Assembly: GCA_913047625.1 (NCBI GenBank)
Contig: CAJWUJ010000001.1
Coordinates: 1 to 64,000 of the forward strand
Length of the DNA stretch: 64,000 bases
Source of the DNA: an uncultured Dehalococcoidia bacterium
Lineage (GTDB): Bacteria; Chloroflexota; Dehalococcoidia; Lucifugimonadales; CAJWUJ01
Direction: 5' to 3'
Positions 5,527 through 9,658 of this stretch are shown piece after piece. The position numbers and the translations under genes were made by a program. Within the stretch, counting starts at the first letter, position 1. Each line of letters begins with the position of its first letter. The notes under the pieces were generated by a model, which worked only from the letters and a program-made list of their open reading frames with translations, was not told the origin of the DNA and made no database searches.

Positions 5527-6510
5527 TCAATTTTCAGTGTTATTCTTTTCGGTAATGGCTAGTACTGTTTGTACGGATACACCTAGTGCGTAAGCTATGA
5601 ATACTGAAGCTGTTTGACTAGGTACTGATACGTTAGTTAACCAATTATTGATTGTGTTAATGTCTATGTTTGTTATGGTTGCGAGATCATTAGGACTGAG
5701 ACCAGTGCGAATCATTTGATCTTTTAACCAGCTGGAAAATTCAGCCCTGTGCTCTTGATAAATAGCCTTGTGTTTTTTGTCCGATCTGCGCATATGTTTT
5801 GCTGAAATTGCGACAAATAATTTCATGCTTACTAACCCTGCGATAAAGCCTCCAATATGTGCCCAATATGCAATAGCACTTCCTCCCAAAGCACTCGATG
5901 ATCCAAGACCGTGATAAATTTGCATGAGAAACCAAATACCTAACAGTACTTTGGCTGGAATTTTCATAAATGTAATGAAAATGAACCAGACAATCGTTCT
6001 AATTTGGCTATTGGGATACAAAAGAATGTAAGCTCCCATAACTCCCGATATAGCACCACTTGCTCCAATCATAGGCACAGTAGATTGAGGATTAAACATT
6101 ATCTGGAATAGGGCTGCTGCTACTCCACAAAGTAGGTAAAAAACAAGGTACTTTACGTGACCTAGATAATCCTCAATGTTGTCACCAAATACCCATAGAA
6201 AGAGCATATTTCCTGCAAAGTGGAAGAATCCTCCGTGGAGAAACATGGAACTAAAAATAGTGGCCCAAGTTGGAATAGGAGACGTGCAATCTATTATTTG
6301 GTTATATCCTGCTAGGATTTCACCTTCGCAGAGAGTACCTGAAGTGATTTCAAACGGGATCAACCCGTATCTCATAATGAACTCGAAATCTTGTACTGCA
6401 TTAAACGCGAGAAACTGGACTGCAAATATCAAGATATTGATAATAATCAATGCCACGTTCACATAGGGGGTCGTATTTCTTTGTAGATCAGGATCTGAAA
6501 GGGGGATCAT
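5527..6510 (-). CDS. Rhomboid family intramembrane serine protease with C-terminal XRE-like HTH domain
   Basis: GASGAISGVMGAY (catalytic GxSG) and WAHIGGFIAGL (catalytic His); the C-terminus FSSWLKDQMIRTGLSPNDLATITNIDINTINNWL..PSQTASVFIAYALGVSVQTVL has the XRE HTH pattern. Confidence 0.88.
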   Translation of the reverse strand: MIPLSDPDLQRNTTPYVNVALIIINILIFAVQFLAFNAVQDFEFIMRYGLIPFEITSGTLCEGEILAGYNQIIDCTSPIPTWATIFSSMFLHGGFFHFAGNMLFLWVFGDNIEDYLGHVKYLVFYLLCGVAAALFQIMFNPQSTVPMIGASGAISGVMGAYILLYPNSQIRTIVWFIFITFMKIPAKVLLGIWFLMQIYHGLGSSSALGGSAIAYWAHIGGFIAGLVSMKLFVAISAKHMRRSDKKHKAIYQEHRAEFSSWLKDQMIRTGLSPNDLATITNIDINTINNWLTNVSVPSQTASVFIAYALGVSVQTVLAITEKNNTEN

Positions 6511-8381
6511 TTACTTTTCCGATATGTGTGGTTCACACTAGAAGAACTCACACGGAGATGTTGTTTAATCAGTTTTGCTAATTGTATGTTTATACCAGGG
6601 ATTGAAGCTATCTCTTCTACTTCAGATCCCCTAATATTTTGGATACTACTAAACTTCTCCATTAGATGTTTCTTTTTTATACTACCAATGCCCGGGATTG
6701 TATCTAGAGCAGAATATACGGAGCGCTTGCTCCTCTTTAATCGATGGAAAGTGATGGCAAAACGATGTGCTTCATCCCTTATCCTCTGTATAAGGTGCAT
6801 TTCTGGTGACTCATGTGCAAGATTTATTGGGGCAGGATTATCTGGGATAAAGACTTGCTCTTCTCTTTTTGCTATGCTGGCTAATGGAATCTGGGTCAAT
6901 CCCATATCTTCCAAAACTTGGATACCTGCGGACAGATGTCCTTTGCCTCCATCAATAAGTATAAGATCTGGGATTTGTCCAAAACTAGACTCACGGGATT
7001 CCCTGATAATGTAATTTAATCGCCTGTGCAATACTTCCTTCATCATTGCGTAGTCGTTGGGTTGATCAATCGATTTGATCGTAAATTTTCTGTAGTGAGG
7101 TTTATGAGGCTTTCCGCCAATAAAGACAACCATGCTTCCTACCGAGTCAGTTCCTTGGATATTTGAGATATCAAAACACTCAATTCGATTTGGTGTTTTT
7201 TGGAGATTTAGTAAGTGGCTAATACTTTGAAGAGTTTCTATATGGGTATGAGCGTTAGAATTGGATTGAAATTTAAGTTTCTTTAGTCCATAGCTAGCGT
7301 TGGTGTTAGCTAGTCGTAGAAGTTTTAATCGTTTACCTCTTTTAGGAACGTTCAATTTCACTTTTCTTTTGGCCACGGTTGCTAACCAGCTTGATACAGT
7401 TTCTAAGTCAGGAATAGGTGCCTGAGAAAGGATCAAGTGAGGTATCTGGGGTGATTTATCATAAAATTGCTTTATGAAACTGGCTAGAATTGAACCCGTA
7501 TCTTCATTATTAATCTTAACCATTTGGAAATTGTCACGTCCTGTAACTGTTCCATATCGTACATGTAGAACTTCTACCCACGCGATACTATTATCAATTG
7601 CTAATCCCAGTACATCTATATTTTCTTTATTTTTTGAAACGGTTGTCTGCGTTTCAGTAATGTGGGTAATTGATCGGATTTGATCCCGAAGTCTGGCTGC
7701 TTTTTCATATTCCATTGACTGTGATGCTGAATTCATACTGTTTTTTAAACTTTTGGTGACATCTTTGGTATTACCGTTTAAGAAGTTAATAAGTTGATTG
7801 ATAATCTCGTGATACTGCGCCGATGAAACTTCTCCAGTGCAAGGTGCAGCACACCTGTTAATATAGAACTCTAAGCAAGGTCTGGCGTCTGTACCTGTAA
7901 TGGTTTTTGAACAGGTACGATACGGGAATAACCTATTCAGAAGATTCATTGTTTGTCTTATAGACTTGACGTTGGTATAAGGTCCAAAATACTGTGCAGA
8001 GTCTTTGAGCCGTTCTCTAGTAATGTGTGGTTTAGGGAAGTCTTCCTTAAGATTTATTTTTATGTATGGATACGTTTTATCGTCTTTAAGTCTAATGTTG
8101 TAGTGGGGCTTATAACGTTTAATGTAAGTATTTTCCAGCATCAGTGCCTCTGTTTCTGAACCAGTTACTACATAATCAAAGTCAGACACTCTTTTTATGA
8201 GATGCTTCTGCTTTCCCACTAGTTTCGCGGGCGAGGAAAAATAATGTCGCAGCCTTGTTTTAAGACTAGAAGCTTTTCCAACATAAAGGATGGCATCAGC
8301 GGGGTCTTTTAAAAGATAAACTCCAGGCTTATCAGGGGTGACTTGTAACTTTTGGATCCGTTCTTCCCAAGTCATTGGCAC
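6507..8381 (-). CDS. uvrC: Excinuclease ABC subunit C
   Basis: 624 aa; GIY-YIG (PGVYLLKDPADAILYVGKA), RIECFDISNIQGTDSVGSMVVF, LILIDGGKGHLSAG, C-terminal HhH. Confidence 0.97.
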   Translation of the reverse strand: MPMTWEERIQKLQVTPDKPGVYLLKDPADAILYVGKASSLKTRLRHYFSSPAKLVGKQKHLIKRVSDFDYVVTGSETEALMLENTYIKRYKPHYNIRLKDDKTYPYIKINLKEDFPKPHITRERLKDSAQYFGPYTNVKSIRQTMNLLNRLFPYRTCSKTITGTDARPCLEFYINRCAAPCTGEVSSAQYHEIINQLINFLNGNTKDVTKSLKNSMNSASQSMEYEKAARLRDQIRSITHITETQTTVSKNKENIDVLGLAIDNSIAWVEVLHVRYGTVTGRDNFQMVKINNEDTGSILASFIKQFYDKSPQIPHLILSQAPIPDLETVSSWLATVAKRKVKLNVPKRGKRLKLLRLANTNASYGLKKLKFQSNSNAHTHIETLQSISHLLNLQKTPNRIECFDISNIQGTDSVGSMVVFIGGKPHKPHYRKFTIKSIDQPNDYAMMKEVLHRRLNYIIRESRESSFGQIPDLILIDGGKGHLSAGIQVLEDMGLTQIPLASIAKREEQVFIPDNPAPINLAHESPEMHLIQRIRDEAHRFAITFHRLKRSKRSVYSALDTIPGIGSIKKKHLMEKFSSIQNIRGSEVEEIASIPGINIQLAKLIKQHLRVSSSSVNHTYRKSK

Positions 8382-8425: not shown

Positions 8426-8794
8426 CTAAATAACAGCCGAAAACACGAATAATAAACCTACAATAGCAGCACTGATCGTAGCAATTCTAGTTAGTTCAGC
8501 TCTAACATACCGTTCTGGTTCGACACGAACTAACTTTTTGGATTTCTTGGCCGCTGTTTGAGGTTTTGGGGTCAAAGATGGTTCGGCTGTTGGTTTTTGC
8601 GACGCCTGTGGTTTGTCGTGTTCCGTTGGTTTTGTCTCCGACTGGCTTTCTTCCGTTTCCGTTGTTGCTTTGTTCAAAGCAGTTAAGTTTTGCTTAACTA
8701 TCGTAGAAACTGCTGCCTTAGCACCATCTTTTCTTTTTTTCCGGCTCTGGATGCTTGATTGCCTAGCTGCTGTTCGTTTAGATTTTGAGGGCAT
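8426..8794 (-). CDS. Hypothetical Lys/Thr/Glu-rich protein with single C-terminal transmembrane helix
   Basis: 122 aa; low-complexity charged N-terminus, C-terminal IATISAAIVGLLFVFSAVI. Confidence 0.6.
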   Translation of the reverse strand: MPSKSKRTAARQSSIQSRKKRKDGAKAAVSTIVKQNLTALNKATTETEESQSETKPTEHDKPQASQKPTAEPSLTPKPQTAAKKSKKLVRVEPERYVRAELTRIATISAAIVGLLFVFSAVI

Positions 8795-9522: not shown

Positions 9523-9658
9523 ATTTACTTACCTCCCTGATAAGTGTGTAGTTATGTCAAAGAATTCGGGAGAAGATTTAATTGTTATTCCCGGTTCATC
9601 AGGCACGTGATTAGGTTTAATCTATTTGACGTCTGTATTATTGATTACAGATGACACT

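Follow-up and report, generated by a model that had tools for sequence, protein, structure and literature searches.

The gene at positions 5527 to 6510 of the window (the whole 64,000-nucleotide stretch of DNA analyzed here) encodes a rhomboid protein with a helix-turn-helix (HTH) domain of the Cro/C1 (XRE) type at its C-terminus, an architecture that is new for this known protease family and has been seen once. The HTH domain may serve as a permanently tethered, cytosolic accessory module of the protease, a role to which we assign a probability of roughly 0.5. The features concerned are:

5527..6510, minus strand: rhomboid-HTH fusion gene, 327 amino acids plus stop, with a PF01694 match and with PF01381 over the C-terminal tail
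5818..6267, minus strand: rhomboid domain (PF01694 match), with H92, H97, N101, Ser151 (GASG), and His218 (AHIGG)
5740..5811, minus strand: basic juxtamembrane linker, about residues 234-257 (AISAKHMRRSDKKHKAIYQEHRAE), with 7 K/R and 3 D/E
5551..5739, minus strand: Cro/C1 (XRE)-type HTH domain, residues ∼258-320, placed by PF01381, hhalign, and helix order
6507..8381, minus strand: uvrC, whose end shares 4 nt (ATGA) with the rhomboid start, the probable upstream operon neighbor

The open reading frame runs unbroken from an ATG start through 327 codons to its stop. Over the HTH tail the codon score is 0.097, in comparison with 0.153 ± 0.057 for the training windows (roughly one standard deviation lower than the average for genes of the window), and the GC3 value of 0.33 is normal (0.35 ± 0.06). 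Taken with the intact frame, these values point to a native coding segment and speak against a frameshift or read-through artifact. The rhomboid profile (PF01694) covers residues 82-231 with 112 bits (cut-off 22.6; E=3.4e-32), and this gene is the sole rhomboid match over the cut-off in its genome, which is 1.55 Mb in size and 91% complete. Both the catalytic serine of the GxSG motif (S151) and the catalytic histidine (H218) are present, and these residues, along with H92, H97, and N101, do not vary in any of the 66 aligned relatives; by analogy with the family, the oxyanion-hole His/Asn are expected among the conserved residues. A hydropathy scan finds most of the transmembrane (TM) segments, and the helix near residues 82-108 falls below its threshold. 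The protein is apparently a rhomboid intramembrane serine protease with six TM helices and a Ser151-His218 dyad, and its residues predict proteolytic activity. It shares this Ser/His pair and the conserved H92/H97/N101 set with bacterial rhomboids (PF01694, MEROPS S54; N-terminal MIPLxD type), and its identity to many homologs from the same phylum is ∼40-55%.

The initial annotation had proposed that this core is fused to a C-terminal XRE-like HTH, and profile comparisons bear this out. Residues 265-314 match HTH_3 (PF01381) with 20 bits when the whole protein is scored, below the cut-off of 23, and the match rises over that cut-off when the tail is scored alone (23.6 bits) and in a genome-wide profile search (23.8 bits), where nothing else in the source genome scored over the cut-off for HTH_3. 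None of nine shuffled tails matched any HTH family. Alignment of the tail with ten XRE domains of the order by hhalign gave a probability of 97.4% over 67 columns, whereas the best of 40 shuffled controls reached 1.6%. Searches of PDB sequences with the tail and with the whole protein returned nothing significant. As sequence homology, judged from these profile scores, the HTH domain is real.

The further description of the tail as a full XRE HTH holds for its sequence and predicted helix order, and falls short in the match to solved folds. A single-sequence AlphaFold model of the 97-residue C-terminal piece (mean pLDDT 72) has a long helix ending near residue 269, followed by helices at 276-279, 284-293, 298-309, and 313-326, which is the helix order of an XRE domain. 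Against solved XRE domains this model scores TM ∼0.2-0.3 with E>1, which is not significant, and its best structural neighbors, likewise at E>1, include the 434 repressor, CylR2, controller proteins, and DdrO; models made from single sequences are too poor to test the HTH fold.

The six-helix core of rhomboids has an N-in/C-in topology. Given this topology and the basic segment that follows TM6 (7 K/R, 3 D/E; positive-inside rule), the tail is predicted to be cytosolic, in agreement with how it was first described. Its autoproteolytic release, which had also been suggested, fits this arrangement poorly: the active site of rhomboids is accessible from the periplasm (PMC7593790), and this tail continues directly from TM6, the helix that bears the catalytic His218, so that it would hang from a catalytic element on the face opposite the active site. 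More broadly, a cut by the rhomboid itself, or a cut in the linker by another protease, could free the HTH to regulate transcription in soluble form. TM6 and the HTH are joined by a linker, and XRE domains can act alone, but cleavage in cis would have to break the core of the enzyme itself, and inspection by eye of the region before residue 240 revealed no internal start preceded by a convincing ribosome-binding site. We regard such a releasable regulator as very improbable.

Rhomboid core homologs were found, at the thresholds used, in 147 of 393 genomes of the class sample and in 186 of 400 genomes of the phylum sample. The whole-protein search for further rhomboid-HTH fusions, which covered 59 relatives and these class and phylum genomes, yielded none, and none was found in genome contigs or viral contigs. 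A tail-only search of 250 genomes of the order likewise gave no second fusion; it returned weakly similar stretches, some of them in ordinary free-standing HTH proteins, and a search of the tail against phages found no fusion. At ∼85 loci, counted as those with an open frame through TM6 (a few frames are interrupted near the C-terminus), the C-terminal tails were read by eye and none was recognized as an HTH. The inspected bacterial rhomboids differ from the fusion protein in that they stop soon after TM6 or bear short, Arg/Pro-rich, TPR-like, zinc-ribbon-like, or low-complexity tails, or run into other sequence. Two candidates for a second fusion were set aside: a phylum match (G782) that extends to query residue 296 passes two stop codons and is probably a chance extension, and a locus from the genome contigs (L033) that aligns to residue 287 continues into what looks, by eye, like another type of domain. 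Within the collections searched, the HTH tail is thus far confined to one lineage and appears to be specific to it. Among the relatives returned there is no other genome from the window's own family or genus, and for this reason the age and conservation of the fusion are not measurable; constraint on the tail is not measurable either, given that the collections searched hold no second copy.

This distribution bears on the reading that an HTH fragment was joined to the rhomboid by deletion or recombination and has been tolerated without function. The fusion occurs once, and every inspected relative with a readable tail region lacks it. In the class and phylum surveys (the phylum sample being judged from the alignment reach of its matches alone) no match aligns to the tail in an unbroken frame; in addition, the HTH score is weak and consensus positions are divergent. 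Set against this, the open frame and ordinary codon usage of a predicted full-length domain of five helices, in a genome of small size, suggest that the tail is maintained. A neutral fusion is rated as quite unlikely, below either of the functional readings in which the domain stays on the membrane and above release.

In the favored reading, the single rhomboid of this lineage would have acquired a Cro/C1-type HTH at its cytosolic C-terminus, where the domain would remain membrane-tethered as a module for dimerization, protein docking, or sensing, and would modulate or localize the protease as the cytosolic domains of other rhomboids do. We rank this role first, followed in order by a tethered DNA binder, a neutral fusion, and release, because, where cytosolic domains of rhomboids are known, it is the protease that they act on. 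A close comparison is Bacillus subtilis YqgP (GluP), which is also a rhomboid with a cytosolic accessory domain, and whose N-terminal domain binds Mn/Zn and facilitates, or modulates, substrate cleavage (PMC7231995). In YqgP this domain is N-terminal and has a restriction-endonuclease-like fold, and the C-terminal TPRs are extracellular, whereas the HTH of the fusion protein is C-terminal. The N-terminal domain of GlpG provides a further precedent for a cytosolic rhomboid accessory domain (PMC12615303), and zinc fingers found in Streptomyces rhomboids have been suggested to affect oligomerization (PMC4467639). Little is known of what bacterial rhomboids do, and their extramembrane domains provide some of the rare hints; an HTH-tailed rhomboid gives experiments a way into the question of how such a protease may be sensed, localized, or coupled to gene control, although restriction to one lineage with a small genome limits its generality.

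Two other systems resemble the fusion in part. RodZ shares an XRE-like HTH that is anchored to the membrane in the cytosol, and MreB depends on the HTH region of RodZ for its normal curvature localization (PMC6052060, PMC5073135); it differs in having one TM helix, an N-terminal HTH, and no protease. A RodZ-like role with MreB is unlikely here, as the source genome has no HTH_25 match over the cut-off, its MreB-profile matches are partial only (in frames of 647 and 435 amino acids), and the HTH is C-terminal on a rhomboid. The second system was noted in relatives of the same order (L145:6541-7443, L146:332-1204, and L148:1059-1910), which encode a ∼300-amino-acid B12-binding protein with a C-terminal HTH_3 (Pfam), and frames similar to it occur at L147 and L149. 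This is a CarH-like arrangement with an XRE domain in place of the MerR-type HTH. Like the rhomboid fusion, it has its HTH_3 at the C-terminus, attached to an unrelated domain, here a sensor; unlike the fusion, its partner domain is soluble and cobalamin-binding, and its HTH retains the usual consensus.

Most XRE domains bind DNA, and the anchored domain could also do so, binding an operator and linking transcription to the rhomboid's membrane state or its occupancy by substrate. The XRE homology is real, the tail is the genome's only HTH_3 match over the cut-off, and a basic segment precedes the domain. Few basic residues and the loss of two usual polar consensus positions weigh on the other side: only 2 of the 63 residues of the HTH are Lys/Arg, whereas the ten other HTHs from the order used for comparison have 6-12. 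Helix 2 begins, in the hhalign and phmmer alignments, with Pro where Gln is usual, and the Glu that usually follows the Trp is replaced by Leu. The net charge of the domain, -1, is not exceptional, as the same ten HTHs span -2 to +4. Since charge and two consensus positions are weak predictors of DNA binding, these features are weak signs against it, and a tethered DNA binder is a tentative second to the accessory module. The stronger proposal, that an intramembrane protease with its own DNA-binding domain would act as a one-protein switch coupling membrane proteolysis to transcription from the membrane, is doubtful; if true, it would be a rhomboid-based one-component regulator, undescribed in the papers searched. 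No rhomboid-HTH fusion is described in that literature, which comprised open-access papers in the form of titles, abstracts, and some passages.

The target of a tethered DNA binder could possibly be its own, uvrC-containing operon. The 4-nt overlap with uvrC given in the initial annotation is correct: the rhomboid start ATGA at 6510-6507 lies over the uvrC stop TGA at 6509-6507. Two further minus-strand genes are located just upstream of the pair, and the overlap together with these same-strand genes makes an operon, and the co-transcription of the rhomboid with uvrC that the overlap predicts, plausible. Neither the promoter scan (10 found, 11.5 expected) nor the terminator scan (5 found, 3.6 expected) was above chance. 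Upstream of the probable operon, at 9627-9656, there is an imperfect inverted repeat with 11-nt arms that are 82% complementary and an 8-nt gap, which could serve as an operator, although it is a single weak match, scored without a control, and corresponds to no established operator. Also counting against regulation of this operon, the neighborhood is not conserved. The other 29 uvrC loci from the order all lack a rhomboid (flanks up to ∼1.5 kb, shorter in a few), and no uvrC was found beside those rhomboid genes that had their flanks checked; a conserved uvrC linkage is rejected for these loci. The pairing thus occurs in the window only, at one of 30 uvrC loci within flanks of up to ∼1.5 kb, and the functional link with uvrC that had been drawn from it, and with it a role of the rhomboid-HTH protein in DNA repair, is not supported.

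Between uvrC and a cytidylate-kinase-like gene, positions 8426-8794 (minus strand) encode a Lys/Gln-rich protein of 122 amino acids, which has a single hydrophobic segment, at the C-terminus, and matches no Pfam family at E<0.1. In several relatives (L078, L079, L084, L088, L089, L090, and others), the uvrC neighbor, a gene on the opposite strand, looks by eye as if it encodes a membrane protein of the stomatin/slipin type.
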